A stretch of DNA of 53,132 bases from Alphaproteobacteria bacterium. Its GTDB lineage: Bacteria; Pseudomonadota; Alphaproteobacteria; Rs-D84. Made by a program: the position numbers and the translations under genes. The stretch is from NCBI GenBank assembly GCA_017630405.1, contig JAGBVH010000008.1:1-53132 (forward strand), read 5' to 3'. Positions within the stretch are counted from its first letter, which is position 1. Each line of letters begins with the position of its first letter. Positions 2,822 to 45,793 of this stretch are shown one piece after another. Under the pieces are notes generated by a model. The model made no database searches and was not told the DNA's origin. It saw nothing but the letters and a program-made list of their open reading frames with translations.

Positions 2822-2913
2822 GACATAGATACGCACACCCCCGATGCCATAGTGTACATATAGTTACATGAGGCATCGGGGTTGTGCGCAGATATGCCAT
2901 TAGATTTTATTTA
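2822..2913 (-). repeat. Palindromic 3'-end element, copy 1 (after trxB)
   Basis: Two arms of about 27 bases (2822-2848 and 2872-2898) pair with few mismatches, including the run CCCCGATGCC/GGCATCGGGG. Between them lies the family core ATAGTGTACATATAGTTAC. The right-hand tail ATTAGATTTTATTT contains the stop codon of trxB. A second AAATAAATTAGAAT motif at about 2766, resembling the outer arm of other copies, suggests that the element once began further left. Confidence 0.75.
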
Positions 2914-3814
2914 AGTACGCGATTGCGTCCATACCCGCCGTACACCCTGTCCCTACGGCCGTTGCGATTTGCATCTTGATATCGGAATGAACATCGCCCG
3001 CAACGAATATGCCTGTTGGCAATTCAGACGGTGCCAAACGCCCCATCGCGTCACGTTTGATATCCTCGGTCAGATAATCTGTATTAGCCTCGTGCCCAAT
3101 GGCAACAAACAGACCATCCGTTTCTATTTCTGTACCGTCTGTTGTGGTCACAACCAAGCGACCATCTGGCGAGTCTGGAATCGCCGCAATCTTGACCAAG
3201 TCCGTATTAAACAGACATTCGATATTTTCGCGCTGTGCCACGCGTTCGCGCAATACAGCCTCGGCACGCGTAAATGCGCCCTTGCGATATATAATCTTGA
3301 CCGACTTTGCCAAATCCGCCAAATACAAAGCATCATTCAGCGCGCTGTTGCCACCGCCCATAACGATTACATCCTTGTAACTGTAAAAGAATCCATCACA
3401 TGTCGCACAATATGACACGCCCCGCCCCATCAGTTCGCGCGCGCCTTCGATGTCCAGTTTGCGTGGGGACGCACCAGTCGCAATAATTACAGTTTTGCCC
3501 ACATAGCGCACACCATCATCGCCCAGAACACTAAAACCACCAGCCGCATCGCCATCAATACTTTTAGCAGATACAAACTTTACCTCGGCACCAAAGGTTT
3601 CACATTGCTTTTTCATAAATTCGGCCAGTTCCATACCAGAGCCCGCCCAACCCGGATAATTTTCCAAAGTTGGAATACCTGCCATCTGACCGCCCAGACG
3701 ATTTCCGCCCAGAACCAAAGTCTTTTTATTCGCACGCGCTGTATACAATGCCGCAGTCAACCCAGCAGGCCCCGAACCTAAAATAACAACATCATACATA
3801 TTAATATCAGTCAT
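2900..3814 (-). CDS. trxB: Thioredoxin-disulfide reductase
   Basis: Transfers electrons from NADPH through FAD to thioredoxin in the cytoplasm. The 304-residue product has the FAD-binding GSGPAGLTAALYTARA motif near residues 13-28, the redox CATC pair (Cys136, Cys139), an NADPH-binding GGGNSALNDAL segment near 155 and the C-terminal GIFVAGDVHSD FAD motif. Length fits the family. The frame is open far upstream, but the ATG at 3814 preceded by GGAAAGG and followed by MTDINMYDVVILGSGPAG is the natural start. It is divergent from serS. The last codons and the stop (Leu-Asn-Lys-Ile-stop) lie inside or beside the palindromic element at 2822-2913. The disulfide-rich exported proteins nearby may make thiol homeostasis relevant, but this is only context. 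Confidence 0.97.
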   Translation of the reverse strand: MTDINMYDVVILGSGPAGLTAALYTARANKKTLVLGGNRLGGQMAGIPTLENYPGWAGSGMELAEFMKKQCETFGAEVKFVSAKSIDGDAAGGFSVLGDDGVRYVGKTVIIATGASPRKLDIEGARELMGRGVSYCATCDGFFYSYKDVIVMGGGNSALNDALYLADLAKSVKIIYRKGAFTRAEAVLRERVAQRENIECLFNTDLVKIAAIPDSPDGRLVVTTTDGTEIETDGLFVAIGHEANTDYLTEDIKRDAMGRLAPSELPTGIFVAGDVHSDIKMQIATAVGTGCTAGMDAIAYLNKI

Positions 3815-3847
3815 TGTGATAACCTTTCCCTTTTCTATTTTCGCCCC

Positions 3848-3876
3848 AGCATAACACATCAACAAATTCCACGCAA
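3848..3876 (-). promoter_or_regulatory. Promoter for trxB
   Basis: On the minus strand, TTGCGT (3871-3876), a 17-base spacer and TATGCT (3848-3853) preceded by TGT form an extended -10 sigma70-type promoter. The predicted start lies about 25 bases before the ATG, leaving room for the GGAAAGG ribosome binding site. Read by eye. Confidence 0.6.
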
Positions 3877-3950
3877 ATAAAAATAAATCAAATTGCTTTT
3901 GACAACAATATATAATAATATGTGCAGTGTGAATTAAAGGATAACAAACT

Positions 3951-5228
3951 ATGCTTGATATAAAATTTATTCGTGAAAATCCAGATATCGTAAAAAACGC
4001 CTGCGCGGTCAAGGGATTCGAAGACCACGTGGACGAAATCTTGGAATTGGACGCACGCGTTCGTGAACTGAAAACTATTACCCAATCCAAAACCGCTGAA
4101 AAAAATAAAATCACACGCGAAATTCCAACCGCCACAGACAAGGCACCACTTATCGCACGCTCCAAAGAAATCAACGCAGAAATCGCGGCAGACATGGCGG
4201 AACTGGCGGATAAAGAAGCAGCTGTTTCCGATCTGCTACATCGTGTACCTCAAATTCCATCGACCAGCGCACCAATTGGTCGTGACGATTCGGAAAATGT
4301 CGAAGTACGCCGCATTGGCACACCACGCGAATTTGATTTTACACCACGTCCTCAGTGGGAATTGCTGGAAATGAACGGATGGTGGAAACCTGAAAAGATT
4401 GCCTCTATTTGTGGCACACGCACATACGCACTGTTTGGCGAAGCCGCGGAACTGGAACTGGCAATCCAGACATATGTTCTGCAAAAATTGATGTCACGCG
4501 GTTTTACATTTGTAAACTGCCCATCTATTACAAAGCCACAAACAATCTTCAACGCGGGCCACTTTATGGGTTCTGACCAGTCTGTTATGAACAACGATGT
4601 ATTTATGTTAACCGATACAGACAGATGTCTGGCCGGCACAGCAGAAATTATTCTGAACTCACTGCACAGCGACGAAGTTTTGAACGAAAAAGATTTACCA
4701 ATTAAATATGCAGGTTTCTCGCCTTGCTTCCGCAAAGAAGCAGGTGCCGCAGGTCGTGACACCCGCGGAATCGTGCGTATACATCAGTTTAACAAGGTTG
4801 AACAATACATCTATTGTACACCAGAACAGTCGGACGAAATGCACGAACATTTACTGAACAATTTATGCGATGTTATGGCGGATCTTGAATTACCATATCG
4901 CGTAATAGAAGCATGTACTGGCGACATGGGATTCAACAAGGTAAAAATGCACGATGTCGAAGCATGGTTCCCAAGCGAAAACACATATCGCGAATTGGGT
5001 TCTTGTTCTTCGATTGGCACTTTCCAAGCGCGACGCACCAACACACGCTATCGCGCTGCGGACGGTTCAATGCAGTTCTGCGCCACATTAAACAACACAG
5101 GCATCGCACTGCCACGCGCAATCGTTCCTGTAATTGAAAACCATCAAAATGCAGACGGTTCGGTAAATATACCAAAGTGCCTGCAACCTCTGATGGGTGG
5201 TCGTACAAAAATCGGTGGCAAACACTAA
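3951..5228 (+). CDS. serS: Serine-tRNA ligase
   Basis: Charges tRNA-Ser with serine in the cytoplasm. The 425-residue protein has the class II SerRS layout: an N-terminal helical tRNA-binding arm (about residues 1-105, starting MLDIKFIRENPD), then the catalytic domain with motif 2 (FRKEAGAAGRDTRG near 260) and motif 3 (RELGSCSSIGTFQARRTNTR near 350). Length is normal. The ATG at 3951 follows AAAGGATAACAAACT, a good Shine-Dalgarno. A TTGACA box lies at 3899-3904 in the AT-rich gap to trxB, but a matching -10 at standard spacing is not clear. The gene is single, ending in a strong terminator. Confidence 0.97.
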   Translation: MLDIKFIRENPDIVKNACAVKGFEDHVDEILELDARVRELKTITQSKTAEKNKITREIPTATDKAPLIARSKEINAEIAADMAELADKEAAVSDLLHRVPQIPSTSAPIGRDDSENVEVRRIGTPREFDFTPRPQWELLEMNGWWKPEKIASICGTRTYALFGEAAELELAIQTYVLQKLMSRGFTFVNCPSITKPQTIFNAGHFMGSDQSVMNNDVFMLTDTDRCLAGTAEIILNSLHSDEVLNEKDLPIKYAGFSPCFRKEAGAAGRDTRGIVRIHQFNKVEQYIYCTPEQSDEMHEHLLNNLCDVMADLELPYRVIEACTGDMGFNKVKMHDVEAWFPSENTYRELGSCSSIGTFQARRTNTRYRAADGSMQFCATLNNTGIALPRAIVPVIENHQNADGSVNIPKCLQPLMGGRTKIGGKH

Positions 5229-5231
5229 TAC

Positions 5232-5255
5232 AATCCCCCACTTGGGGGATTTTTT
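5232..5255 (+). terminator. Rho-independent terminator after serS
   Basis: AATCCCCC-ACTT-GGGGGATT stem followed by a run of T. It abuts the stop codon of the convergent gene at 5256, and the A run on the other side means that it may also serve that gene. Confidence 0.9.
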
Positions 5256-5801
5256 CTAGAAACTATAATTCACCGCTAACCCCAAAAAATTAAAACCATG
5301 ATTAATATCAGTAAAATCACCATTTGAAAAATGCTGACTAAATAACTCCACACGCCAATCATCGCTAATTTCCCTGCCTATAAAAACACGCTCGCCAAAG
5401 ACCAAACGACTTTCAACAAATCTGTCACCTGTGTCACGCATATACGGACCTATTCCCAATCCCATATACCAACCACACCAATGTAATAACGCAATATCCC
5501 ACGACAATCCAATCGCACCAAACGAAGTTCCATCCATACCACGATACGCAAAGTTCTGCATAACATTAAAGTTTATTCGCGCGGGCAACCTGAAAATCTC
5601 TACGGGCTGACTGTATTGCGCCATAACAAAAGTCATTGGGCCAAAATCCCATTCCCATGGAAAAATCAGATACCCCAAATCACCCTGCCCCGCACTTTGT
5701 GCCACATATAGCCCAAAGGAATTTTTATCCTTGTTCCCAAACATAGGATTAGCATTCGCCACCCCACAACAAAAAATCAATATCAAACAAATTTTTTTCA
5801 T
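5256..5801 (-). CDS. PagL-like outer-membrane lipid A deacylase family protein
   Basis: About 181 residues with signal peptide MKKICLILIFCCGVANA, then alternating beta-strand-like segments ending in an aromatic C-terminus (LAVNYSF), as expected of a small outer-membrane barrel. The C-terminal HFSNGDFTDINHGFNFLGL matches the acyloxyacyl hydrolase/PagL pattern in which His and the Ser two residues later are catalytic. PagL removes the 3-O acyl chain from lipid A. The catalytic Glu known in PagL should fall about 12 residues after the Ser, where I read Asn, so activity is uncertain. The frame has earlier possible starts (ATG 5828, TTG 5831); 5801 was chosen because it begins the signal peptide cleanly, though it lacks a clear Shine-Dalgarno. 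Confidence 0.7.
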   Translation of the reverse strand: MKKICLILIFCCGVANANPMFGNKDKNSFGLYVAQSAGQGDLGYLIFPWEWDFGPMTFVMAQYSQPVEIFRLPARINFNVMQNFAYRGMDGTSFGAIGLSWDIALLHWCGWYMGLGIGPYMRDTGDRFVESRLVFGERVFIGREISDDWRVELFSQHFSNGDFTDINHGFNFLGLAVNYSF

Positions 5802-5872
5802 AACAAAATTATGCCAACAAAAAAACATCAATCCAATTTGATAGAATTCTTATATATAACTTTTAATTATTG

Positions 5873-5901
5873 TTTACAGACGACCAAAAAATTGATATAA
5901 T
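5873..5901 (+). promoter_or_regulatory. Strong sigma70-type promoter for the gene at 5991
   Basis: TTTACA (5873-5878), exactly 17 bases, then TATAAT (5896-5901). It is followed by a leader of about 80 bases containing two small hairpins: CATG..CATG near 5916-5930 and TCTGGG-TTTTTT-type CCCAGA near 5955-5973. Confidence 0.75.
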
Positions 5902-5990
5902 TACAAAGAATAAACATGCATCACGCATGGTGATAAACCATAGAAAGGTTGGGTTTCTGGGCTTTTTTCCCAGAACACAGGGAGAGTTTA

Positions 5991-8102
5991 ATGAGCACTA
6001 AAAACATCGCAAATTCTATCAAGAATGCAATGGGCACAATATTTTTACTGGCGGGCGCATTTTTTGTCTGCTCGACCGTACTGTCAATTCGGGCTGTATT
6101 TGCAGATCCGGTCACGCCAATTATGGACACAGTTTCCAGCGCCACATCTCAATCACCACGCGCAGGCAACACAATATCACGCGCACCAAATCGCGCAAGC
6201 CCGCGTAACACCGTAACCAAGCGCACAATTGCACGCACCGCAACAAATGTTGCGCCATCTCGCGCGACTGCGAACACTGTATCTCGCGGGACCGCGCGCA
6301 ATGTCACAACACGTGCCACAACAAATCGCGCAACAACAAACACTCGCACTGCGACACGTAATGTTGTATCACGCACACCAGCAACACGTGCCGGTGCAAC
6401 AACCACACGCAATGTTCGTGCACGCACAGCAACAAACGCTGCTCCAACAACATCACGCGTATCATTACAGGGCAGCGCTATCCGCGGCAGCAAGGGAACA
6501 ACATCATCCACATATTCATATCTGTCCAGCAAATTATACACAGGCAACTATTCAAACATCATTGATTCATCAACTGGATTAATATCAAATGATGCATTTA
6601 ATAATTGTATGGAATCATATTATACATGTATGGACGAAATCTGTACTGCTCGTAACGCGGCCCAGCGCCGTTGTGCATGTGCCGGCCGAGTTAAAGCTTT
6701 TGCCGAGGCAGAAACCGCACTTGAAAGCGCAAACGAAGAATTAATCAAACTGTCTGGTGAATTGGCATTGTTGATTGCAAGCGGCGGTAAAGATATATCA
6801 TCTGCATTCCAATTAACAGATGCCGAAAAGGTTCTGAACTGTGTATCATGGAAAGACGCAAACAAAGACGGCACTTGGAGCACTGGCACAACAGATTCCG
6901 ACGCATACAAATGGTGCACCAGCCATGGCATATACACAAACGCAGAAACATGCCCTATGCCATCTTACTGTACAGAAAGTGGAAACTCATTCGGATTTGA
7001 TATCAGCAATATCGACTCTACAAATTCATCCGAAATTCTGGCTTCGTTCAAGGCATTTGCTGATGCCAAGGCAGAAACAATCACAATTTTAACAAAAGAT
7101 GACGAAAGCTTGTCCGAGGCATTCAAAGTTTTGGACAGCACAATCAGCAGCATGACAGGTATCAGCAATGCATTCGCATCATCGGATGAAATAGAAGACA
7201 CATTGGCCGAAACATGGGGTTATGACCTGTTCCGCTATGCACATAACGAAGTATGCGCCCGTGTATTGGATTCATGCTTTAATGGCATTTACGAAGGTTG
7301 CGGCACCCCACCAAGCGGCGGCAAATGTGCGGACGGCCGTTCTACATCATGTCCATTTAACTATAATTCCAAGATTGAAGTATCTTCATCGGGCGACATT
7401 AAATTAAATGACCGCAGCACATCCAGCCTGAACACCAGTGCTACATGCTATGGATACACATCCACATCTGGCGATCCATATTTAAATTTGCGCGGTCCTG
7501 TTGCGGATGCCCGTCGCAGCATTATGAATAAATACTTGTTGGATGCAAATGCTGACTGTGACGTATATGGTGAACAATTGCGCGCCACCGCCCAGAATAT
7601 CAGCTATCAGAAAAGCGCGGCACAACAGGCCCTGCAACAAAAGCGTCAGGAATTCGCACAAACAGAACAAGAAGAAACATTGACCAATGCTGTCACTGCA
7701 TACTCTAACTTTAACGAATGCTTGGGCGAAATTCTTGAATGTTACGAAGACGTATCTGAATCGAACGAAAACTGGCCAACGGCTCGTATAAAAACATACT
7801 GCGCCCAGGTTGCAAATGTTCCACATTGTTATGAACCAATGATTTGTAACCCATCCAGAGCCCAGTTCAAGGCGGTTATCGACGTTGCTGACAACGAGAA
7901 CTGTTCAAACGACCAAGATCTTACCAAAAACACATGTCGTAATGTCGTAACATTGAACGAAATCTTGAAGGGTGCAAGCGAAAATCCAGCCAACATCCCA
8001 GCGGGTGCCAAAGGCGATTCCGCGGGCATGCGTGAACAATGCTTGATTGATGCTGGTGTTGAACCACTTCGTGAATGGGAACGCGAATCCGCCAAGGACT
8101 AA
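5991..8102 (+). CDS. Exported cysteine-rich protein with a long Thr/Arg-rich basic region
   Basis: 703 residues from the ATG at 5991 (preceded by GGGAGAG; an in-frame earlier start at 5949 lacks this). Residues 1-38 are a signal peptide ending RAVFA|D. Residues about 57-156 are striking: essentially only Thr, Arg, Ala, Asn, Val, Ser and Pro, no Asp or Glu, over 20 Arg/Lys, with irregular repeats of the type TRNV, ATNR and TATR. From about 190 on there is a Cys-rich region (CMESYYTCMDEIC, RRCACAGRVKAF, then pairs such as CARVLDSC and CLGEILEC) and a coiled-coil-like Gln/Glu-rich stretch near 545-575. The Cys pattern resembles the proteins at 1-2689 and 9372-11189. Own strong promoter and terminator, so monocistronic. 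No family is recognised; a surface or periplasmic location is likely. Confidence 0.88.
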   Translation: MSTKNIANSIKNAMGTIFLLAGAFFVCSTVLSIRAVFADPVTPIMDTVSSATSQSPRAGNTISRAPNRASPRNTVTKRTIARTATNVAPSRATANTVSRGTARNVTTRATTNRATTNTRTATRNVVSRTPATRAGATTTRNVRARTATNAAPTTSRVSLQGSAIRGSKGTTSSTYSYLSSKLYTGNYSNIIDSSTGLISNDAFNNCMESYYTCMDEICTARNAAQRRCACAGRVKAFAEAETALESANEELIKLSGELALLIASGGKDISSAFQLTDAEKVLNCVSWKDANKDGTWSTGTTDSDAYKWCTSHGIYTNAETCPMPSYCTESGNSFGFDISNIDSTNSSEILASFKAFADAKAETITILTKDDESLSEAFKVLDSTISSMTGISNAFASSDEIEDTLAETWGYDLFRYAHNEVCARVLDSCFNGIYEGCGTPPSGGKCADGRSTSCPFNYNSKIEVSSSGDIKLNDRSTSSLNTSATCYGYTSTSGDPYLNLRGPVADARRSIMNKYLLDANADCDVYGEQLRATAQNISYQKSAAQQALQQKRQEFAQTEQEETLTNAVTAYSNFNECLGEILECYEDVSESNENWPTARIKTYCAQVANVPHCYEPMICNPSRAQFKAVIDVADNENCSNDQDLTKNTCRNVVTLNEILKGASENPANIPAGAKGDSAGMREQCLIDAGVEPLREWERESAKD

Positions 8103-8110
8103 TAATCATC

Positions 8111-8134
8111 AATCCCCCCATTTGGGGGATTTTT
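8111..8134 (+). terminator. Rho-independent terminator after the gene at 5991
   Basis: AATCCCCCCA-TT-TGGGGGATT type stem followed by TTTT, nine bases after the stop codon. Confidence 0.9.
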
Positions 8135-8178
8135 ATTGCCCCACATAATAATGTTTTAATATAAACAAAAGCAAAAGC

Positions 8179-8462
8179 TTTTGTCACCCTGTGGCTGGGA
8201 CCACAAGGGCCCAGGTTATCGTTCCACTATACTAAACGAACTCTCTGACCACCCCGCCCGTTGGGCACCCCTCCATTGGAGGGAAACTTTTCTTTGTAAC
8301 TCCTGCGCAGGCATGAGTGGAACTTTAAGCCCCTATTCCCGCCCCCCGCGTAAACATTTGTTTGCGTGGCTGAACCACAGGGACCAGGTTATCGTTTCCT
8401 TATTATTCGTGCGCATAGGCGCATTACCTGGGTTCTGGTGTCAAGCCCCAGAATGACACTTT
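8179..8462. repeat. Cluster of short palindromic repeats (no gene)
   Basis: A GC-rich block in an AT-rich gap of 445 bases. Two direct copies share GTGGCTG.ACCACA..G.CCAGGTTATCGTT (8191-8225 and 8366-8396), each with a GTGG..CCAC hairpin. A third, inverted relative lies at 8431-8460 (TTCTGG..CCAGAA, with TGACAC at its end). Between the first two are CCGCCCGTTGGGC, CCTCCATTGGAGG and TGCGCATAGGCGCA hairpins. The pattern is like the small palindromic intergenic repeats common in alphaproteobacteria. An open frame of 91 codons crosses the block but is a by-product of the repeats. A structured RNA is possible but unproven. Confidence 0.65.
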
Positions 8463-8497
8463 TCTATACGAAATTGTTTTAATTACTCATATCTCAC

Positions 8498-8524
8498 AAA
8501 AAAAAACACCCGCCGAACGGCGGG
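8498..8524 (-). terminator. Rho-independent terminator for the gene at 8548
   Basis: On the minus strand CCCGCCG-TT-CGGCGGG is followed by TGT and a run of T (A run at 8498-8506 on the plus strand). It is the likely end of the two-gene unit 9372/8548. Confidence 0.9.
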
Positions 8525-8547
8525 CAATAAATCACACAAACAAAGTT

Positions 8548-9348: not shown

Positions 9349-9371
9349 AATGTTTTCTTTTTAATGTTTCC

Positions 9372-21302: not shown

Positions 21303-22337
21303 ATGCACAAAATCGATATAGTATATTTGTGGGTTGACGGTTCCGACAAAAAATGGCTGGCCATCAAAAATAAATGGCTAAAAAAACTAGGTCACTCCAT
21401 CCCAGAGCACCGCGGTGTCACATCCGATGAAAGATATCGCGACAACGGTGAATTCCTGTATTCTGTACGAAGTGTTGCAGAAAATATGCCTTGGGTAAAC
21501 CATATCTATATCATCACAGGCTTTGGTCAAGTTCCAAAATGGTTGAACACCAAGCATCCAAAAATCACAATCGTCCCCCACGAACAGATTATGCCGGCGG
21601 ATGCCCTGCCCACTTTTAATTCTACTGCAATTGAAATGTGTATCCCAAACATTCCAAATTTGTCAGAACATTTTGTTGTTATGAACGACGATATTTTTGT
21701 TAACAAAAAATTATCGCCATCATTTTTCTTTGACCGCCATGGCAATGCGAAAACCCGCCATGTCACCCGTCACCTGCGCGGTAAAAAGTTTGGCAATTGG
21801 CTGGATAGCGCAAATTCTTATTTATCCATGTTACTATTAAGCACCAAGATGATAGAAGTTTTATATGGTCGTAAATTCTATAAATACGCCCCATCACACA
21901 GCATTGACCCATACCTAAAATCTATGTGGATTAAGTGTCGCAACAATCCAATAATAAAACCAATCATCGACAACCAGATAAAGAATAAATTCCGCACAAG
22001 TTCGGAGTTACACCGCTGGATGTTCGGTCTTTATCAAACTACCAATGGTCGTGGAAAAATGTATCGTGCGCGTCCACACAAAAGCAGTCGCCACAAAATC
22101 TCGGATGCAATATATAACTTTTTACATTGGTATAAAACAGGCCGTTCTTCATATGTATGCCCATGTGTACGTGGTCATAAAAAATCCTTGCGACGCGCGG
22201 CTATATTCTGTATTAACGATTCCAGTGATAATACACCAGAAATGTTACGTGAAAACTTTGACTACATATCAAATCGCTTTTCTCGCACATGTGAATTTGA
22301 AAAGCCCACACCGCGCAAAACAACAAAACACAAATAA
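21303..22337 (+). CDS. Stealth-family capsular polysaccharide phosphotransferase (copy 1)
   Basis: 344 residues. The conserved Stealth regions are evident: CR1 IDIVYLWVDGSDKKW at the N-terminus, CR2 RYRDNGEFLYSVRSV...VNHIYIITGFGQVP with the acidic MNDDIFVNKKL, CR3 SHSIDPYLKSMW and a C-terminal CR4-like FCINDSSDNT. Family members transfer hexose-1-phosphate to make phosphodiester-linked capsule; the eukaryotic relative is GlcNAc-1-phosphotransferase. Copy 2 is at 26467, and residues about 65-125 of both are nearly identical. Own promoter and an unusual leader hairpin. Very basic C-terminus. Confidence 0.92.
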   Translation: MHKIDIVYLWVDGSDKKWLAIKNKWLKKLGHSIPEHRGVTSDERYRDNGEFLYSVRSVAENMPWVNHIYIITGFGQVPKWLNTKHPKITIVPHEQIMPADALPTFNSTAIEMCIPNIPNLSEHFVVMNDDIFVNKKLSPSFFFDRHGNAKTRHVTRHLRGKKFGNWLDSANSYLSMLLLSTKMIEVLYGRKFYKYAPSHSIDPYLKSMWIKCRNNPIIKPIIDNQIKNKFRTSSELHRWMFGLYQTTNGRGKMYRARPHKSSRHKISDAIYNFLHWYKTGRSSYVCPCVRGHKKSLRRAAIFCINDSSDNTPEMLRENFDYISNRFSRTCEFEKPTPRKTTKHK

Positions 22338-26466: not shown

Positions 26467-27480
26467 ATGATACCAGATATGAAAATCGACATTGTCTATC
26501 TGTGGGTTGACGACAAAGATAAAAAATGGCGTACCCAGAAAAACAAATGGCTAAAAATTATCAAAGGTGAAAAACCTATCTATACTGATGCCGCAATCGA
26601 TGCCCGCTGGCGCGACAATGGTGAATTTATGTATTCACTTCGCAGTGTGGATAAATTTGCACCTTGGGTAAATCATATCTATATCATCACAGGTTTTGGT
26701 CAGGTTCCAAAATGGCTGAATACCAAGCATCCAAAAATCACAATTATTCCACACGAACAAATTATGCCGGCGGATGCCCTGCCCACTTTTAACGCGACCG
26801 CGATTGAAATGTGTATTCCAAACATTCCGAATTTATCGGAACACTTTTTGCTGATGAACGATGACATGTTCTTCAATCGCCCCCTGTCTCCAAGTTATTT
26901 TTATGACAAACTGGGGCGCGCACGCATCCGTTTCAGCAACCACGCAAACAGATGCCGTAACATAGGTCGCTGGATGGAAAGCGTTGATGAATACAACCAA
27001 ACGCTAATTTTATCCGCCCAGTTCATAGAAAACATTTTTGGTAAACGCGTTTATAAATATCGCCCATCACATGGTATCGACCCATACCTTAAATCCACAT
27101 GGATTGCATGTCGCAACCATCCGATGATAACGGGCCAAATCGATTCGCAAATCCGCAACAAATTTCGCACAAACAACGAAGTCCAACGCTGGATGTTTAA
27201 CCTTTATGACAAAATCAACAACCGCGCTGTATTTATCCACTCGCGCGCAAAGAAACACTCTCGTCATAAAATTATAAACTTTTTCTATAATGCAATATTT
27301 ATGCCTTGGATTCGGAATTCACCCGTATATTGTACGGACACATCGACCGCCCGCAGCGCATTATTAAAATCCCCAACATTTTGTATTAACGATTCGCGCG
27401 ACACAGATGAAACAATTCTGCGCGACAACGCAAAATTCATGGCGGAACGTTTCCCCGAAAAATCCCAATTTGAAAAATAA
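26467..27480 (+). CDS. Stealth-family capsular polysaccharide phosphotransferase (copy 2)
   Basis: 337 residues with the same blocks as copy 1: IDIVYLWVDDKDKKW, RWRDNGEFMYSLRSVDKF, HIYIITGFGQVPKWLN, MNDDMFFNRPL, HGIDPYLKSTW and FCINDSRDTDET. The two genes share a near-identical central stretch including the same codons around ATGCCGGCGGATGCCCTGCC. The start at ATG 26467 follows GGGATTTAATT; a second ATG (26479) is possible. Last gene of the plus-strand glycan operon. The differing N- and C-terminal parts suggest that the copies have distinct substrates. Confidence 0.92.
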   Translation: MIPDMKIDIVYLWVDDKDKKWRTQKNKWLKIIKGEKPIYTDAAIDARWRDNGEFMYSLRSVDKFAPWVNHIYIITGFGQVPKWLNTKHPKITIIPHEQIMPADALPTFNATAIEMCIPNIPNLSEHFLLMNDDMFFNRPLSPSYFYDKLGRARIRFSNHANRCRNIGRWMESVDEYNQTLILSAQFIENIFGKRVYKYRPSHGIDPYLKSTWIACRNHPMITGQIDSQIRNKFRTNNEVQRWMFNLYDKINNRAVFIHSRAKKHSRHKIINFFYNAIFMPWIRNSPVYCTDTSTARSALLKSPTFCINDSRDTDETILRDNAKFMAERFPEKSQFEK

Positions 27481-34833: not shown

Positions 34834-34930
34834 AATAAACAACTCCTTTTGGTGGAAATTATACCATAAAACACAAACATATAAAAGAATAAAATACCAT
34901 ACAAGACCCTGCCCCGCAAAACTGGGAACC

Positions 34931-35034
34931 AAATAAATTATAATGATTTAGATAAAAGTAAATCGGGCATCGTAGTGTACAAATGCTACATGAGATGCCC
35001 GATTTGCTTTTAGATGAATTATTCTAATTTATTT
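34931..35034 (-). repeat. Palindromic 3'-end element, copy 2 (after secB)
   Basis: Two 41-base arms (34931-34971 and 34994-35034) match at about 34 positions; the inner 12 pairs AAATCGGGCATC/GATGCCCGATTT are perfect. The 22-base centre reads GTAGTGTACAAATGCTAC plus ATGA. The right end AATTTATTT supplies the secB stop codon. This is the clearest copy of the family. Confidence 0.85.
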
Positions 35035-35454
35035 GGCATAACGCTGTTCGTACAACTGCGCAAAATCCACCATCTGCATATTAAATGGTGCAAAGCCAGA
35101 TTCACCAGTCAAACGTGTGATAAGGGCACGAACAGATGGGAATAACAAGGTTGGAACTTCAATCAACAATGTACGCCTTTTAACTTCTTCGTCCTTTTCT
35201 TCTTCCATCTGGACCAGACCAGAATATGTAGTTTCAATCAAGAACATAGATTTGTCTTCCTGTTCCAGTTTTGAATGAACCTTCATAATCAAATCAACCA
35301 TAAACAAGTTGTTTTCTGCACCTTTGATTTGAATATCGATATTAATTTCCAATTTCGCCTGACCGCCATCTTTCCTAAAGAACAATTCTGGTACATTTGG
35401 GCTTTCAAAAGAAATATCTTTCAAGAACTGGGATATAATATTAAATTTTGCCAT
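35029..35454 (-). CDS. secB: Protein-export chaperone SecB
   Basis: 141 residues. FLKDISFESPNVPELF near the N-terminus, the INIDIQIKG strand, and the C-terminal PTLLFPSVRALITRLTGESGFAPFNMQMVDFAQLYEQR are hallmark SecB segments. It binds unfolded precursors in the cytoplasm and hands them to SecA. AAGGAG lies before the ATG. It fits the many exported barrels and lipoproteins in the window. Stop codon lies within the palindromic element. Confidence 0.96.
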   Translation of the reverse strand: MAKFNIISQFLKDISFESPNVPELFFRKDGGQAKLEINIDIQIKGAENNLFMVDLIMKVHSKLEQEDKSMFLIETTYSGLVQMEEEKDEEVKRRTLLIEVPTLLFPSVRALITRLTGESGFAPFNMQMVDFAQLYEQRYAK

Positions 35455-39886: not shown

Positions 39887-39906
39887 CAACAAAATGGAAT
39901 AACATT

Positions 39907-40116
39907 ATGAATACACAAGAAAATCTTACAGCCCCACGCTATGCACATTACCCAAACGATCGCATATCAATGGAACTTAAACAACATACCGAGGCTAACC
40001 TGCGACGCGCCGAAGAACGCGAACGCGAATTATTAGAAAAACATATCTTGTTTGATGATGTCTTGGATATAATATTCGCACTCAAGGCAAAACTTCAAAA
40101 ATTTAAAACAAAATAA
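39907..40116 (+). CDS. Small coiled-coil protein behind virB11
   Basis: 69 residues, strongly charged helix (LKQHTEANLRRAEERERELLEKHILF) followed by a hydrophobic-basic end (LDIIFALKAKLQKFKTK). GGAATAACATT precedes the ATG. The same unit as virB11 with its terminator after, so it may be a partner or regulator of the ATPase. No family is recognised. Confidence 0.68.
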   Translation: MNTQENLTAPRYAHYPNDRISMELKQHTEANLRRAEERERELLEKHILFDDVLDIIFALKAKLQKFKTK

Positions 40117-40140
40117 AAATCCCCAAACGGGGATTTTTTT
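40117..40140 (+). terminator. Rho-independent terminator after the virB11 unit
   Basis: ATCCCC-AAAC-GGGGAT followed by seven T. Confidence 0.9.
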
Positions 40141-40157
40141 ATACCAGAATAATTTAT

Positions 40158-40461
40158 TAAAAATTAAAGATAACGGTATATATATAAACGAATTGTCGGC
40201 ATCGTAGTGTACAAACGCTACAAGAGATGCCCATCACCCCAACCCCTTGCCTGTCGAAAAAATAAATTAGAATTATTTAGATGTGGAACGGTCCCGACAA
40301 CGTAGTGTACAAACGCTACAAGAGACGCCCATTACCAAACCCCTTACCCGTCGTAAAAAATAAATTAGAATGATTTAGATAAAAACAAATCGGGCATCGT
40401 AGTGTACAAGCGCTACATGAGATGCCCGATTTGTTTTTAGATGAATTATTATAATTTATTT
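40158..40461 (-). repeat. Tandem array of three palindromic 3'-end elements (after yebC)
   Basis: Cores GTAGTGTACAAACGCTAC begin at 40204, 40302 and (with GCGCTAC) 40399, a period of 97-98 bases. The third unit is a complete palindrome (arms AAACAAATCGGGCATC/GATGCCCGATTTGTTT extending to AAATAAATTA-type ends). Units one and two keep the core and right flank but their stems are largely broken (GATGCCC versus GACGCCC, different left arms). This accounts for the 348-base gap between the virB11 unit and yebC; no gene is seen in it. Confidence 0.8.
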
Positions 40462-40464
40462 TTA

Positions 40465-41181
40465 CTAGGCGGCGGCGGTAAACACCTTCTGCACATCGTC
40501 ATTCGCATCCAAAGCATCAACCAACTTTTCCAACTTGGCATATGCTTCATCGTCCAGGTCAACAGGCATATTTGGAATCCATGTCAATTCCGCCTGCTCT
40601 GGTTCACCAAGTTTATCCGCCAAATACTTCTGAGCTGTGATAAAATCTTCTGGTTTTGTCGTGATGATAAAGCCCTCTTCGGATGTTTCAAGGTTATCCG
40701 CGTTTGCTTCCATGATAATTTCCATCATTTCATCTTCGGTTTTACCAATTGATGCGGGATACATAATCTGGCCGGCGCGTGTAAACATAAACACAACACT
40801 GCCTTCTTCGCCCATATTACCACCATTTTTACCAAAGATATTACGAATTTCTGGCACAGTACGACGTGGATTATCGGTCAAAGCTTCTACGATAACAGGA
40901 ACAGCACCTGGGCCATAACCTTCATAGCGCACTGCTTCATAGTTTTCAGTATTTGCGCCAGACGCTTTTTCAATCGCGCGTTTGATATTATCGTTCGGCA
41001 TAGAATTCTTGCGTGCTGTCAAAATAGCCAAACGCAATCTTGGATTATTGTCCGGATTTTTATCACCCAGTTTTGCCGCCATAGTAATTTCACGCGCCAG
41101 TTTTGTAAACAAACCACTGCGTGCCGCGTCAGCTGCACCTTTTTTGTGCTGAATATTATGCCATTTACTGTGTCCACTCAT
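40465..41181 (-). CDS. yebC: YebC/PmpR-family translation or transcription regulator
   Basis: 238 residues starting MSGHSKWHNIQHKKGAAD, the unmistakable YebC N-terminus, with KNSMPNDNIKRAIEKASG and YEGYGPGAVPVIVEALTDNPRRTV following. Members act on translation of proline-rich stretches or as DNA-binding regulators. Divergent from ruvA, matching the widespread yebC-ruvC-ruvA association although ruvC lies 3 kb away here. AAAAGG precedes the ATG. Confidence 0.96.
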   Translation of the reverse strand: MSGHSKWHNIQHKKGAADAARSGLFTKLAREITMAAKLGDKNPDNNPRLRLAILTARKNSMPNDNIKRAIEKASGANTENYEAVRYEGYGPGAVPVIVEALTDNPRRTVPEIRNIFGKNGGNMGEEGSVVFMFTRAGQIMYPASIGKTEDEMMEIIMEANADNLETSEEGFIITTKPEDFITAQKYLADKLGEPEQAELTWIPNMPVDLDDEAYAKLEKLVDALDANDDVQKVFTAAA

Positions 41182-41231
41182 ATTTGACCTTTTTATTTAT
41201 TTAGATTAAAATTACCCCAAAAGGATAACAA

Positions 41232-41822
41232 ATGATTGGCAAATTGCAAGGCATAGTTGACTATATTGGTGACGGATTCGTAATTTTATTGGTTCATGGG
41301 GTTGGATACAAGGTCCACACCGCAGAATACCTGACCCACAAATCAACCGTGGAATTATGGATTGAAACGGTTGTCCGCGAAGATTCCATCCGCCTGTTTG
41401 GCTTTACGACTCTGGCCACACAAAACCTGTTTAATATGTTAACAGGCGTATCTGGCGTTGGCCCAAAGGTTGCCTTGGCAATACTTGGCACAATCAGCAG
41501 CGATACCTTGATGTCAGCAATCGCAACCGGCGATGCCAAAACAATTGCAACCGCGCCGGGGGTTGGCAAAAAGATGGCCGAAAAAATCATTGTTGAATTA
41601 AAGAACAAAATCGGTGGCGCGCCTGCAACGCTATTTGCACCGGAATCCGGCGGTGCGGCGGCATCATCGGCCCTGCCCGATTTATTGATGGCACTGGAAG
41701 CATTGGGTTATCGTCGCCTTGATATAATCGAAATGGCCCAGAATTTGGTCAACAAAAACCCAACCGCCGATGTATCTAAATTGGTTCCGCAGGCACTAAA
41801 AGAAATCAGTAAAGGCAAATAA
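41232..41822 (+). CDS. ruvA: Holliday junction helicase subunit RuvA
   Basis: 196 residues: MIGKLQGIVDYIGDGFVILLVHGVGYKVH (OB domain), the helix-hairpin-helix pair (LTGVSGVGPKVALAIL, TAPGVGKKMAEKIIVELKNKIG) and C-terminal RuvB-binding three-helix domain (LPDLLMALEALGYRR). It binds four-way junctions and docks RuvB. AAAAGGATAACAA precedes the ATG. Three bases separate it from mnmE. Confidence 0.96.
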   Translation: MIGKLQGIVDYIGDGFVILLVHGVGYKVHTAEYLTHKSTVELWIETVVREDSIRLFGFTTLATQNLFNMLTGVSGVGPKVALAILGTISSDTLMSAIATGDAKTIATAPGVGKKMAEKIIVELKNKIGGAPATLFAPESGGAAASSALPDLLMALEALGYRRLDIIEMAQNLVNKNPTADVSKLVPQALKEISKGK

Positions 41823-41825
41823 GAA

Positions 41826-43124
41826 ATGAATAACGAAACAATTTTTGCTCTATCATCTGGTCATGGTAAATCTGGCGTTGCTGTTCTTCGTATCTCAGGC
41901 AACAGCTTGCACGATACATTCGCCAGTTTTATTAAAAAAACCGATTTTCAAAATCGTCATGCTTACTTTTGTAATCTGACAGACAACGATGGCGAATTAA
42001 TTGACCAATGCTTGGCAATTTACTTCCCAGCCCCCTATTCTTTTACAGGCGAAGATGTCATAGAATTACACACACATGGCGCACCGGCTGTAATTAACAA
42101 AGCATTCGAATATCTGGGCACACTTGGTATGCGAATGGCAGCACCAGGCGAATTTTCACGCCGTGCATTTTATAATAACAAAATGGATTTGGCGGATGTC
42201 GATGGTCTGGCCGCGCTTTTGGATGCCCAGACGGACCAGCAACGCAAACACGCATTAAAATCTATGTTGGGCCATGACAGTGATATATATAACAACTGGC
42301 GCGATTCTATGATTGAAATATCGGCCTATGCGGCAGCAATGTTGGATTACAGCCCAGATGACCTGCCCGCAAATATTGGCGAAACAATCAAAGTCCGCAC
42401 AGAAAAACTGTATTCTGAAATGGACACAGCATTAAAAAACTATCGCACATCACGCGCAATTCGTGGTGGAATCAATGTGACCTTGGTTGGCGAAACAAAT
42501 GTTGGCAAATCTTCTATATTCAATTATCTGGCCGGCTCTAATCGCGCAATCGTATCCGATATTGCCGGCACAACACGCGATGTCGTATCAATAAATCTGG
42601 ACATAGATGGATTTATGATAAACCTGTCTGACACAGCGGGCCTGCGCGAAACAAATGACAAAATCGAATCCATTGGTATCGAGCGAACAAAAAACGAAAT
42701 CGAAAACGCAGATATTATAATCCGCGTCTATACGCCGGATTCTGTGGCACATGACGATTTACACGATAATGAAATTGTGGTTATAAACAAATCAGACACC
42801 GCAACAAAACAGGACCAGAAAAACGCAATTTACACATCTGTAAAAACAGGCGATGGAATGGATAAATTTATGACCACGCTTCGCGACAAGATTCATAAAA
42901 TCATGGACGGCGCCGAAGGCAGCCTTACCATTAACGCACGCACTAAAACATTATTGGAATCCGCGCGCGATGAATTAGCGCACGCACTTGCCGCGGGCGA
43001 AAACTATGACATATTCGCAGAACACACCCGCCGCGCAGCAGATGCGATTGGTAAAATCCTTGGCACAATCACCGCAGCCGAGGTATTGGATAAAACTTTT
43101 GGCCAATTATGTTTAGGAAAATAA
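41826..43124 (+). CDS. mnmE: tRNA modification GTPase MnmE
   Basis: 432 residues. N-terminal tetrahydrofolate-binding domain (IFALSSGHGKSGVAVLRISG), helical domain, G domain with GETNVGKSS, DIAGTTRD, DTAGLRET and NKSD, and the C-terminal CLGK with the essential Cys. With MnmG it makes the carboxymethylaminomethyl group at the tRNA wobble uridine. Co-transcribed with ruvA. Length is slightly short of the E. coli protein, as usual in alphaproteobacteria. Confidence 0.96.
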   Translation: MNNETIFALSSGHGKSGVAVLRISGNSLHDTFASFIKKTDFQNRHAYFCNLTDNDGELIDQCLAIYFPAPYSFTGEDVIELHTHGAPAVINKAFEYLGTLGMRMAAPGEFSRRAFYNNKMDLADVDGLAALLDAQTDQQRKHALKSMLGHDSDIYNNWRDSMIEISAYAAAMLDYSPDDLPANIGETIKVRTEKLYSEMDTALKNYRTSRAIRGGINVTLVGETNVGKSSIFNYLAGSNRAIVSDIAGTTRDVVSINLDIDGFMINLSDTAGLRETNDKIESIGIERTKNEIENADIIIRVYTPDSVAHDDLHDNEIVVINKSDTATKQDQKNAIYTSVKTGDGMDKFMTTLRDKIHKIMDGAEGSLTINARTKTLLESARDELAHALAAGENYDIFAEHTRRAADAIGKILGTITAAEVLDKTFGQLCLGK

Positions 43125-43149
43125 AATCCCCCATTTTTGGGTTTTTTTT
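43125..43149 (+). terminator. Weak terminator after mnmE
   Basis: CCCA-TTTT-TGGG stem followed by eight T; the stem is short but the T run is good. Confidence 0.6.
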
Positions 43150-43165
43150 AGATTAAGTTTTACAG

Positions 43166-43271
43166 TAAATTAAAGATAATGGTATAGATAAACAAATTGT
43201 CGGCATCATAGTGTACAAATGCTACATTAGATGCCGACAATTCGCTTTAGATATACTATTAGATTTTATTT
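43166..43271 (-). repeat. Palindromic 3'-end element, copy 6 (after the acyl-CoA ligase gene)
   Basis: Inner arms AAATTGTCGGCATC and GATGCCGACAATT pair perfectly; the centre (43208-43229) is ATAGTGTACAAATGCTAC plus ATTA; the right end is ATTAGATTTTATTT. Stem sequence differs from copies 2 and 5 yet keeps pairing. Confidence 0.82.
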
Positions 43272-44852
43272 TTATTCGTGACGGTCTGGATACTTGCCAT
43301 CAATCAAGTTCTGACGAACCAGATGATGTTTAACCTTTTGTGTACCGGTTAATGGCAAATCCTCGGTTGTCATGGCAAAGTGAGTCACCCATTTATAACT
43401 GGCAACCTTTTTATTTGCCGCGGCAACTTCCGCACTTAACTTTTCCATGGTCATATCAGGTTCAACACTGAACACACCATATGTGACTGTCTTGTCCTTT
43501 ACATGGTGTTCAAATACCGCAACATTTTTAACACCTGGGATTGTGATAAACATACCTTCCAATTCGTCTGGATAAACATTTTTACCACTATCCAAAACGA
43601 TAACTTGCTTTTTGCGTCCTGCAAAGTGCAATTCACCATTTTTATCCATGGACACCATATCACCTGTATTAAAGAAACCGCGTTCGTCAAAGATTTCTTT
43701 GTTTGCTTCTTCGTTATTCAAATAGCCACCAAACACCTGATGACCACGCAACCACAGAACACCAACGCCATCTTCATTTTTATCACGAATTTCACATTCG
43801 TTATTCAGTGTTGGTCCACCAAAAGCAAATGGGAAACGCTTTTTAGTTGGTTTTGAAATACAGATTGGCCCAACAGTTTCTGTCAAACCATATCCCTGAA
43901 TAAAGGTCAAACCCAATCTTTCATAGAAAGTTTCAACCTCGGGCTTAGTAGCGGCACCACCTGCAATCAACAGACGCGCACGACCACCAAACACATCCAA
44001 GATAGGCTTCTGAACCTTGCGCACCAAGAATCCAAGACCGATTTTTTCCAATGTCTTGCCATACTTCAAAACAAAGGACACAAGCCCCCATTTCTTTTGC
44101 GCTTTTACATTATCAATAATTTTGTTACGGAACACTTCCCAAAGTCTTGGCACCGCAGGAATAACCTGGGGACGGAACTTTTTAAAGTCTGCCATTATTT
44201 CTTTTGGGTTAATTGTTGGCTGCAACAGCACGCCCGCCCCAAAGTGAATCGTTGCCAGAATTTCCACAGCAAAACCAAACACATGATACATTGGCAAGAA
44301 CCCATAAAGGACATCACCTTCCCTGATCCATTCGGCCATTGATTCCAACGAATTTGTACATTCAACAATATTAAAATGTGTCAAAGGCACAACCTTTGGA
44401 ACACCTGTTGAACCAGATGTAAACGACATAGTTGCAATATCCAACGATTCAACCGCCGCAGGTTTCAAATCTGGGTTAACCTTGCCGTCTTTCTCGGTAA
44501 TATCATAGAACTTAAAGTTCTTGGTTTTATAAACAAAAGACTTTTCCGCACAAACCAACTTACAGCCTGTTGTTTTGGTCATATTGTCATATTCAAATGG
44601 TGTCAGATTTGTATCCAGCAACAACACAGTTCCACCCAGATACCAAATCGCGAACAGCGAAATTGGAAATTCTGGGATATTGTGTGACAAGATACCAACC
44701 ACATCACCCTTTTTAACACCTGCTGCATCCAATGATGCCGCGCGCGCTTTGACCAAACCAATAAAGTCTTTGTATTTAACGCCCTCGCGCACCAGATAAA
44801 GGTTATCTGGATATGTCTGCGCTGTGCGTTCAAGTAACTGATACATATTCAT
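43272..44852 (-). CDS. AMP-binding acyl-CoA synthetase (fatty-acid-CoA ligase type)
   Basis: 526 residues. Adenylation motifs: MSFTSGSTGVPKVVPLTH (P-loop), QGYGLTETVGP, NTGDMV, GRKKQVIVLDSGKNVYPDELE and the C-terminal catalytic-Lys region LPLTGTQKVKHHLV. It activates a carboxylate, probably a fatty acid, to its CoA or carrier-protein thioester; chain length cannot be read. The ATG at 44852 (MNMYQLLERTAQTYPDNLYLV) is preceded by AAGGAATTTTATACT and a promoter. Single gene. Confidence 0.9.
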   Translation of the reverse strand: MNMYQLLERTAQTYPDNLYLVREGVKYKDFIGLVKARAASLDAAGVKKGDVVGILSHNIPEFPISLFAIWYLGGTVLLLDTNLTPFEYDNMTKTTGCKLVCAEKSFVYKTKNFKFYDITEKDGKVNPDLKPAAVESLDIATMSFTSGSTGVPKVVPLTHFNIVECTNSLESMAEWIREGDVLYGFLPMYHVFGFAVEILATIHFGAGVLLQPTINPKEIMADFKKFRPQVIPAVPRLWEVFRNKIIDNVKAQKKWGLVSFVLKYGKTLEKIGLGFLVRKVQKPILDVFGGRARLLIAGGAATKPEVETFYERLGLTFIQGYGLTETVGPICISKPTKKRFPFAFGGPTLNNECEIRDKNEDGVGVLWLRGHQVFGGYLNNEEANKEIFDERGFFNTGDMVSMDKNGELHFAGRKKQVIVLDSGKNVYPDELEGMFITIPGVKNVAVFEHHVKDKTVTYGVFSVEPDMTMEKLSAEVAAANKKVASYKWVTHFAMTTEDLPLTGTQKVKHHLVRQNLIDGKYPDRHE

Positions 44853-44892
44853 AGTATAAAATTCCTTGTTGTTTTTATATTGGACAGCAGAT

Positions 44893-44920
44893 ATTATACT
44901 CATGAATCAAAGGAAAGCAA
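44893..44920 (-). promoter_or_regulatory. Promoter for the acyl-CoA ligase gene
   Basis: Minus strand TTGCTT (44915-44920), 16 bases, TATAAT (44893-44898). It overlaps the ribosome-binding region of the divergent xthA gene (start 44923), so the two units may interfere. Confidence 0.55.
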
Positions 44921-44922
44921 AT

Positions 44923-45693
44923 ATGAAAATACTTACATTAAATATTAATTCAATTCGCGCGCACATTGAAAGTTTCCTGGAAATCCTGCGTAAAGGCGAA
45001 TACGACACAATTATGGTCCAAGAATTAAAAGTCGAAACCTCCAACTTTCCGCATATGATTTTTGATGAATTTGGCTATAACATCAAGGTATTCGGCCAAA
45101 AATCATGGAACGGTGTCGCAGTATTTTCTAAAAATTCCATCGAAGATGTCACCCTTGGCATGCCAAATTACGCGGATGTAAACGCCCGTTTTCTTGAGTG
45201 TGTCATTGATGGGCATGTGCGACTTATCAATACCTATATGCCAAACGGCGACACAGTTGATTCACCTAAATTTCCATACAAACTGGAATGGATGCGTGCC
45301 TTTACGGACTATATCGCCCAGTATCTGGATTCCCCGGAACCTGTAATTATCGGCGGTGATTTTAATGTCGCTATTGAAGACCGCGACATCTGGAAACCCA
45401 AGAATTACGAAGGAATCGCGATTTCCGCACCAGCCGCACGCGAGATTATGAACCAATGGTTAAGTGCCGGCTGGACCGATGCATGGCGCACTCTGCACCC
45501 AAACGAAATTGACTATACATGGTACGGCTATCGCGGACGCGACACGGTTGGCAATAAACAAGGCCTGCGTCTGGACTATTTCCTGTGTAATAAAACAGCC
45601 GCAAAAATGATAAAAAATTGCGAAATTGACATGGAACCACGACTGGCCAACAAACCAACAGACCATTGTGGATTAATGCTGGAATTAAAATAA
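44923..45693 (+). CDS. xthA: Exodeoxyribonuclease III / AP endonuclease
   Basis: 256 residues. Motifs of the EEP nuclease fold in order: LNINSIR, VQELK (metal Glu), NTYMPNG, GGDFNVA (Asp and Asn), GLRLDYFL and KPTDHCGL (catalytic Asp-His). It removes 3' blocks and cuts at abasic sites in base-excision repair. The ATG at 44923 with AAAGGAAAG upstream is the start; the open frame further left covers the divergent promoter region. Confidence 0.95.
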   Translation: MKILTLNINSIRAHIESFLEILRKGEYDTIMVQELKVETSNFPHMIFDEFGYNIKVFGQKSWNGVAVFSKNSIEDVTLGMPNYADVNARFLECVIDGHVRLINTYMPNGDTVDSPKFPYKLEWMRAFTDYIAQYLDSPEPVIIGGDFNVAIEDRDIWKPKNYEGIAISAPAAREIMNQWLSAGWTDAWRTLHPNEIDYTWYGYRGRDTVGNKQGLRLDYFLCNKTAAKMIKNCEIDMEPRLANKPTDHCGLMLELK

Positions 45694-45793
45694 AAATAAT
45701 GGAGCAAATAAGCGAATTGTCGGCAATATAGTGTACATAACGCTACATGAATGGCCGGCACCGCTTGTAGATATGTTATTAGATTTTATTTTT
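45691..45793 (-). repeat. Palindromic 3'-end element, copy 7 (after addB)
   Basis: Centre ATAGTGTACATAACGCTACATG (from 45728) flanked by AATTGTCGGCA and TGGCCGGCACC arms, more diverged than copies 2 and 6, with the usual right end ATTAGATTTTATTT next to the addB stop codon. Confidence 0.72.

Follow-up and report, generated by a model that had tools for sequence, protein, structure and literature searches.

Judged by GC skew, the orientation of the hairpin elements described here goes with the direction of replication, and their host genes lie on the leading strand. The family came to light in a 53,132-nt stretch of DNA, referred to below as the window (Alphaproteobacteria bacterium, Rs-D84; assembly GCA_017630405.1, contig JAGBVH010000008.1, positions 1 to 53,132 of the forward strand). 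We put at about even chances the reading that these are small non-autonomous hairpin repeats, spread by copying and pasting, which are placed behind leading-strand stop codons and often replace the terminator; the evidence suggests that the repeats spread to new sites while the DNA is being replicated, and that they may substitute for the usual terminators of genes. With this family, nature provides a system in which to test how insertion sites are chosen by single-stranded DNA at replication forks, and what brings transcripts to an end in an uncultured gut lineage that is large and has small genomes.

Elements in the window

All seven cores listed in a preliminary description of the window (2850, 34972, 40204, 40302, 40399, 43208 and 45728) are present at those positions on the + strand, and five of them match TAGTGTACANNNGCTA exactly, where simple arithmetic predicts about 0.002 exact matches in 53 kb on both strands. 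Core searches that allow three mismatches discriminate weakly on their own (6 matches against a shuffled mean of 4.05, and 16 against 8.5). The long inverted arms that had been attributed to every core are found at five, which are complete palindromes of about 105 nt with folding z from -3.1 to -14.5, but not at 40204 and 40302, whose right arms are largely unmated.

The five sites lie, as had been claimed, directly downstream of minus-strand genes and in the same sense. The first element (2808..2912, + strand; z -9.0; 88.7 bits), a complete palindrome with the core TAGTGTACATATAGTTAC at 2850, overlaps with its right end the stop codon of a Pyr_redox_2 family gene (2900..4195, - strand), which is leading by GC skew. 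The second (34931..35034, +; z -13.2; 109.3 bits), complete with core 34972, overlaps the secB stop codon (35029) in the same way, the gene being identified by a SecB domain match (35029..35454, -), and sits between two minus-strand ORFs. Behind the YebC gene (40465..41181, -), which was compared over 50 genomes, stands a three-unit array whose gene-proximal unit (core 40399; 40358..40461, +; z -14.5; 110.2 bits) is complete; the unit at core 40302 (approximate limits 40263..40350, +; z -0.7) consists of a left arm and core with an unmated right arm, and that at core 40204 (40163..40267, +; z -2.5; 34.1 bits) of a left arm and core with a right arm unmated past about 6 bp. On the far side of the array there is a hairpin with a T tract that resembles an intrinsic terminator (40115..40139, +). 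Terminal inverted repeats with 43-nt arms, 86-88% complementary, are present at 34929 and 40356, a feature shared with MITEs derived from DDE transposons.

The next complete element (core 43208; 43167..43271, +; z -8.6; 99.6 bits) follows a gene with an AMP-binding enzyme domain match (43272..44903, -) and adjoins a terminator-like hairpin with a T tract at the end of a convergent plus-strand gene (43128..43148, +), and the last (core 45728; 45687..45791, +; z -3.1; 73.8 bits), complete and less perfect, follows a gene with a PD-(D/E)XK nuclease domain match (45792..48299, -). Since the other neighbouring ORF of copies 40399, 43208 and 45728 is on the plus strand, these three gaps are convergent. 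The names trxB and addB come from the preliminary description; the domain matches obtained for these genes are Pyr_redox_2 and PD-(D/E)XK nuclease. Further copies in the same genome (1.05 Mb, 30 contigs) keep a single orientation per contig, with two on the + strand of contig C12 (and a third, also +, at E 0.05) and two on the - strand of C19.

Structure and distribution of the family

The element is a near-perfect palindrome of about 105 nt with the asymmetric tip 5'-(G)(U/G/A)A-GUGUAY-loop-RUACAUGA-3', which is kept in nearly all aligned copies, and the predicted folds conserve the shape of the hairpin across copies of variable sequence. The combination of a conserved tip with covarying stems, first suspected from the seven copies, was borne out: the apical hairpin hardly varies, and the stems covary strongly, with 93.5% of 1009 stem cells paired (72.3% in shuffles), changes on both sides in 32 of 39 stem pairs, and a covariation score of 0.554, which falls to 0.171 on shuffling and to 0.114 or less on sliding. 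A wobble pair in the tip is also conserved (G.U in 25/26), and it pairs only in the strand opposite to the mRNA strand. When mismatches were used to ask which strand folds, opposite signs were obtained: G.T exceeds A.C in the A2 arms (57 vs 16), and A.C exceeds G.T in the inner stems (62 vs 28, counted in the core-sense strand of 61 of the 79 copies). In Enterousia the hairpin tip carries the motif GTAG, which is often replaced by GGGA or GAA in other genera; REP elements have GTAG/GTGG 5' of the hairpin foot instead, so that the layout is indeed unlike theirs.

A covariance model built from 27 copies has matches in 111 of the 157 genomes searched in Ca. Enterousia, a genus of gut Alphaproteobacteria, and none in the other 46; the nine genomes tabulated have 4 to 24 matches each. 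A scan of the order with the same model placed the family in 11 of 22 genera and overturned the idea of a family confined to one genus, which had come from a pattern search (18/99 genomes, one genus of 33). The hairpins match no described RNA family, in line with the preliminary description: at the gathering score Rfam 15 finds only two tRNAs in the window, and at E<=1 six loci gave tRNAs and sub-threshold matches, some of which overlap the hairpins. No published description of the repeat family was found in the accessible parts of the open-access literature. A phage origin was rejected on a search with a single exact pattern, which found no exact core in viral contigs.

Placement at gene ends and relation to terminators

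The bias toward gene 3' ends in one sense extends far beyond the window. Of 100 copies, 79 abut a leading-strand gene at its stop codon (-13 to +11 nt, with an overlap of at most 13 nt), and a further 18 are inner units of arrays; some copies overlap predicted upstream ORFs that are short or have alternative starts. A copy is carried by 77 of 370 leading gene ends and by 1 of 233 lagging ones (Fisher 1e-16). Of 36 tandem cases, 12 have the start of the next co-directional ORF at -2 to 67 nt past the element. In other genera, 8 of 30 loci are without an opposite-strand downstream ORF.

In most cases the element occupies the place expected for a terminator. A canonical terminator follows beyond it at 6 of 79 element ends, compared to 125 of 292 ends without an element, the count at element-bearing ends being taken beyond the array and hence at a different position from that at element-free ends; counting within 80 nt after the stop codon would be trivial for the former, because the element fills that space. 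Read in gene sense, 26 of the 79 copies have at least four T among the 7 nt that follow the stem (9/79 not scored). One copy in the window's own genome lies between the co-directional genes for S13 and S11, which argues against obligatory termination.

The yebC gene permits the same gene to be compared on both strands. The element is present at 18 of 39 leading yebC genes and 0 of 9 lagging ones (p 0.018), or, among genomes with at least 10 model matches, at 14/18 and 0/7 (p 0.0007). All nine lagging genes have an ordinary terminator, and 21 of the 39 leading genes have no element; yebC is mostly followed by one or the other, and its stop codon stays in place where the element follows. At two loci (L149 and L155) the palindrome runs into the coding end of yebC, so that the distal arm contains the end of the gene in inverted form.

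Orientation and replication

The orientation of the element agrees with GC skew in 99 of 100 copies and in all 49 stretches examined from 15 genomes, and it is uniform in 34 of 35 contigs with at least two separate sites (125 sites, 24 genomes). In other genera the skew is weak, and the sign agrees in 7 of 8 stretches. The one-contig genome, G100, has mostly negative skew from about 150 to 600 kb, and both of its copies (427 and 512 kb) fall in that arm and point the expected way; a parS-like pattern allowing two mismatches gives only a hint of its origin, because control patterns match about as often in several genomes. Most mapped stretches fall in one chromosome arm; L097 (G028) is the only one assigned to the other, through a single gene match to G100 and another to G108. 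Several stretches are ambiguous and L111 was not placed. No copy was found in contig C1 of G108, though its first 170 kb or so are skewed and belong by synteny to the same arm. The link to replication is absent from the reading given in the preliminary description.

That orientation simply follows the gene and not replication was rejected as the sole cause, because lagging gene ends almost never carry the element, with yebC at 0/9 when lagging.

Copying and the proposed mechanism

Separate loci in three genomes (G108, G053 and G119) are 97-99% identical over 100-114 nt, with the identity ending about 10 nt or less from the palindrome, which points to recent copying; contig-end copies (G126, G121), which may be assembly duplicates, were left out of this evidence. 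The preliminary description had likened the motif to REP elements mobilized by RAYT transposases. This link found no support, and mobilization by RAYT/IS200 was rejected, since no Y1_Tnp (PF01797) match is present in 16 element-rich genomes; one of 14 genomes without elements has such a match. Spread by a reverse transcriptase was also rejected: RVT_1 occurs in 6 of the 16 element-rich and 4 of the 14 element-free genomes, and its absence from the other 10 element-rich genomes means that no reverse transcriptase is shared. Inspection by eye revealed no target-site duplication, and no attC core sites R'/R'' (GTTRRRY / RYYYAAC) at the element ends in the alignment.

Under the copy-and-paste reading, we infer the direction of the fork, insertion through the single-stranded lagging-strand template, a putative enzyme that would carry it out, and a function at the 3' end. 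A new copy would go in right behind a stop codon, in genes that have the leading strand as their coding strand, the landing strand being the lagging-strand template exposed at a fork whose direction is read from skew. Insertion would occur in one orientation and would usually replace the intrinsic terminator, after which the element would presumably act as the 3' end of the gene. Complementarity of the arms could be kept by selection, by fold-back copying or by both, and units would also multiply in tandem on the side far from the gene.

Alternative explanations

The rival that survives best, which we nonetheless think unlikely, is that the element is a cis-acting hairpin at mRNA 3' ends, which would serve leading-strand genes as a terminator or 3'-UTR protector and would be inherited vertically and homogenized by gene conversion with no transposition. 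Its position right behind stop codons that do not shift, the scarcity of canonical terminators beyond it, and the alternation of element and terminator at yebC are all what such a hairpin would produce, and the A.C excess of the inner stems corresponds to G.U in the mRNA strand; yet that excess is also expected from C-to-T mutation of the leading strand, and the tip wobble pairs only in the other strand. Moreover, such a role would not demand the leading strand, the U tracts are mostly poor, and the copy between the S13 and S11 genes and the close spacing of the next co-directional ORF in tandem cases also count against it.

Somewhat more doubtful is an extension of the copy-and-paste reading to a replication-coupled gene-ending system, in which a mobile single-strand hairpin would recognize, on the lagging-strand template, where leading-strand genes have their 3' ends and would replace the terminators there, so that the kind of 3' end would depend on replication direction, with a terminator on lagging genes and a hairpin possible on leading ones. 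A recombinase of folded attC-like sites, without an integron, may serve such a system.

It is improbable that the elements correspond, in dispersed form, to the attC sites of integrons, that is, folded single-strand sites behind stop codons recombined by a tyrosine recombinase. The layout is similar, comprising a hairpin that stands behind genes and keeps its shape while its stem varies, one orientation relative to the gene, tandem units (73 distinct inter-core stretches), and a strand antisense to the gene that lies on the leading-strand template; the same position of the bottom strand of attC sites holds for 25 of 30 sedentary chromosomal integrons according to the accessible part of PMC5371416. 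The elements differ in that no core-site motif was seen by eye at their ends and in that they form no cassette array, their hosts being scattered housekeeping genes.

An equally improbable account treats them as neutral palindromes kept symmetric by template switching during replication (quasipalindrome correction), which would make the covariation uninformative about function. The extension of the palindrome into the yebC coding end at L149 and L155 is in its favour, but an asymmetric tip that persists in nearly all aligned copies and the near-identity of separate loci are contrary to it, and the placement at stop codons is left unexplained. A polar chromosome signal, KOPS/AIMS-like or fork-pausing and Ter-like, would account for the strict polarity with replication and is very improbable given the few copies per genome, their concentration in one arm, the 46 genomes of the genus with no match, and the placement bound to stop codons.

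Relation to known systems

In size, stem-loop form, dispersal and non-autonomy, the Enterousia element resembles ERIC/RU-1, RUP, Correia and RPE, dispersed stem-loop repeats of about 100-150 nt which are thought to be non-autonomous; RPE differ by also inserting inside reading frames, and the accessible part of the source reports neither a replication-locked orientation nor strict leading-strand stop-codon placement for such small palindromic repeats (PMC2229807). REP/BIME with RAYT and IS200/IS605 are likewise hairpin elements, and the orientation fixed relative to the fork that is seen here by GC skew recalls IS608 and ISDra2, which act on the lagging-strand template as far as the available text of PMC6006769 describes them. 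One difference is the lack of a match to a Y1 transposase in the 16 element-rich genomes.

An orientation fixed by replication is shared with AIMS and KOPS, which are spread over both arms; AIMS are 8-bp words and not hairpins at gene ends. Group IIC introns insert beside terminators with a strand bias, but an element of only 105 nt has no room for a ribozyme, and RVT_1 is missing from most of the element-rich genomes. The replication strand bias of mobile elements is usually statistical, whereas the bias in the copies examined here is nearly absolute and is combined with placement at leading-strand stop codons, so that the same gene can carry the element when it is leading, and all of the lagging cases seen have an ordinary terminator.

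Orientation and replication direction

The orientation of the element is tied to the direction of replication, as read from GC skew (from which leading and lagging strands are inferred throughout), and its placement is tied to the stop codons of leading-strand genes. Orientation was assessed in 58 sources (1.09 Mb), picked mostly because they hold matches, in which the covariance model of the family (R1) made 173 matches; 100 of these were used, on the best strand and at 50 bits or more, with weaker matches and opposite-strand echoes excluded. The sign of the skew agrees with the orientation of the element in 49 of 49 stretches, and 99 of the 100 copies have their core sense on the C-rich strand; the lone exception, at 7022-7125 of stretch L091, has its arms in the usual sense and its inner hairpin inverted. 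Orientation is uniform in 34 of the 35 contigs (24 genomes) that have at least two sites more than 1 kb apart, the sites having been typed by hand from match lists with echoes and some weak or partial matches excluded, and the one mixed contig, C7 of genome G036, owes its status to that same copy.

In G100, a single-contig genome sampled at 20 stretches, skew is negative over ~150-600 kb, approaching zero at 300 kb and at 450 kb; outside that range it is for the most part weakly positive. Both copies fall within the negative arm and have the orientation expected there. Most element-bearing stretches map to this arm by synteny, with several ambiguous and one unmapped, and stretch L097 (G028), apparently from the other arm on one gene match per reference only, has opposite orientation and opposite skew. 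In genome G108 skew varies greatly along contigs C1-C3 (L065-L081, L172-L191): it is about -0.2 on C3 and in 1-240 kb of C2, positive in the opening ~170 kb of C1 and near zero in the rest. Of these contigs, C2 and C3 alone yielded copies.

Placement at stop codons

The same-sense siting at gene ends given in the preliminary description is supported: the downstream ORF is on the opposite strand for 98 of the 100 copies. The stop codon of this ORF is abutted, within -13 to +11 nt, by 79 copies, and 18 of the 21 others lie ~98-211 nt from it, the distance seen for inner array units; the real exceptions are L092:6177, L094:19184 and L113:4773. The strand bias at gene ends was checked in 98 sources, with any whose skew was under 0.1 set aside, using ORFs and transcription-unit ends from a simple script rather than a gene finder: a standard-sense element stands at 77 of 370 leading ends but at only 1 of 233 lagging ends (Fisher, 1e-16), and 7 further ends have a reversed copy nearby.

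The yebC gene permits this comparison at one locus across 50 genomes: 39 have it on the leading strand and 9 on the lagging strand, and 2 are unclear. On reading of the sequences, the tally of elements took in G026 and G011, where the pattern had overlooked the core, and dropped G032 as a false match. The yebC stop codon is followed by an element in 18 of the 39 leading but 0 of the 9 lagging cases (p 0.018), and in 14 of 18 compared with 0 of 7 (p 0.0007) among genomes with at least 10 R1 matches, echoes counted. All nine lagging genes have an ordinary intrinsic terminator, and eight of the nine genomes carry the family elsewhere; in G126 and G127 the elements near the lagging gene lie beyond that gene's terminator and have the opposite orientation. 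The two genes of unclear strand have a terminator (G118) and an element with an inverted tip (G107). In L155 and L163 the element follows the yebC stop and a surviving terminator lies beyond it. The distal arm in L149 (G108) and L155 (G036) contains an inverted copy of the yebC end, and the palindrome therefore extends into coding sequence.

Role at gene ends

A canonical terminator occurs within 80 nt past the array at 6 of 79 element-bearing gene ends and within 80 nt past the stop at 125 of 292 leading ends without an element (p 4e-10, the two windows being not strictly alike), a scarcity which fits either replacement of the terminator by the element or its destruction on insertion. Obligatory termination by the element is counted against by three observations. 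One copy, L006:1456-1558 (G000:C19:9429-9531, in the window's own genome), lies between co-directional genes for ribosomal proteins S13 and S11, which commonly form one operon; of 36 tandem cases, 12 have the start of the following co-directional ORF -2 to 67 nt past the element, four further gaps being negative by at least 40 nt; and U tracts at the elements are mostly poor.

Fold and covariation

The seven cores around TAGTGTACANNNGCTAC first described in the window are all present, on the plus strand. The inverted arms attributed to every one of them are present in the five complete palindromes of ~105 nt, the two best having 43-nt arms that are 86-88% complementary, and not in units 40204 and 40302, where a right arm matching the left is scant or absent; these two and 40399 make up the three-unit array at yebC. 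In the usual predicted fold of the core-sense strand, the tip is a short stem with a small loop, bounded on its 3' side by a 4-nt bulge; below it come a ~19-bp stem of variable sequence and an internal loop from repeated GA, and at the base a ~9-bp stem leads through a second mismatch or GA loop to an A+T-rich outer stem.

In an alignment of 27 complete genus copies (A2), with incomplete and chance matches excluded, 93.5% of 1009 cells are paired compared with 72.3% in shuffles, a figure that leans towards structure, since this alignment also supplied the structure. The covarying stems and near-invariant centre of the preliminary description are both borne out: 32 of 39 pairs have changes on both sides, the covariation score is 0.554 (0.171 shuffled, at most 0.114 slid), and five of six tip-stem pairs are without any variation. 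Two cases were seen, L168 (G107) and L091:7022-7125 (G036), of an inner hairpin inverted inside otherwise standard arms, so that tip inversion does happen.

Copying and proposed mechanism

In each of G108, G053 and G119, copies at separate loci are 97-99% identical over 100-114 nt, and this near-identity stops within ~10 nt of the palindrome. Arrays, whose unit is the left arm and core repeated with a linker, also recur within a genome, at 89-91% identity over ~300 nt (G048, G016); the loci examined together hold 73 distinct stretches of 60-130 nt between cores. A common GCAAGGGG-type linker motif is found in G016, G014, G036 and G017, and the G048 arrays share a linker of their own that is unrelated to it.

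The elements may insert into the single-stranded lagging-strand template, the coding strand in the case of leading-strand genes, beside a 3'-end signal; such a step would produce both locks, to fork direction and to the leading-strand stop codon, at once. We give this single-strand copying model an even chance of being right. IS608-type elements, which act on the lagging-strand template (PMC6006769), match the proposed step in this respect. The suggested link to RAYT was not upheld, the Y1_Tnp family (PF01797), to which IS608-type transposases also belong, being absent from 16 of 16 element-rich genomes searched. In most sedentary chromosomal integrons the attC sites likewise have the strand arrangement seen in this family (PMC5371416). 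The family falls among the small palindromic interspersed repeats, within which it is clearly a new form; a search of the open-access literature at listing level found no description of it or of a double lock of fork direction and stop codon.

Distribution

The window's genus is most likely Candidatus Enterousia, placed in order Rs-D84 (PMC12306168); the core also occurs in a Ca. Enterousia onthequi record. R1 matches were found in 111 of 157 genus genomes (E <= 0.1, with no more than 25 candidates taken for scoring in each) and, across the order, in 121 of 191 genomes and 11 of 22 genera (E <= 0.001), all from the window's family bar one genome of another. The exact core pattern was absent from the viral contigs searched and present in 105 stretches of the species genome collection; of the 80 listed, most bear titles of ruminant-gut Alphaproteobacteria bins. 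Other genera show a more general form of the tip, GUGUAY-loop-RUACAUGA, on stems that differ (30 loci, 11 genomes, 8 genera). Elsewhere in the window, 21303-22337 and 26467-27480 are paralogous Stealth-type (CR1/CR2) genes with 81% identity over 282 nt.
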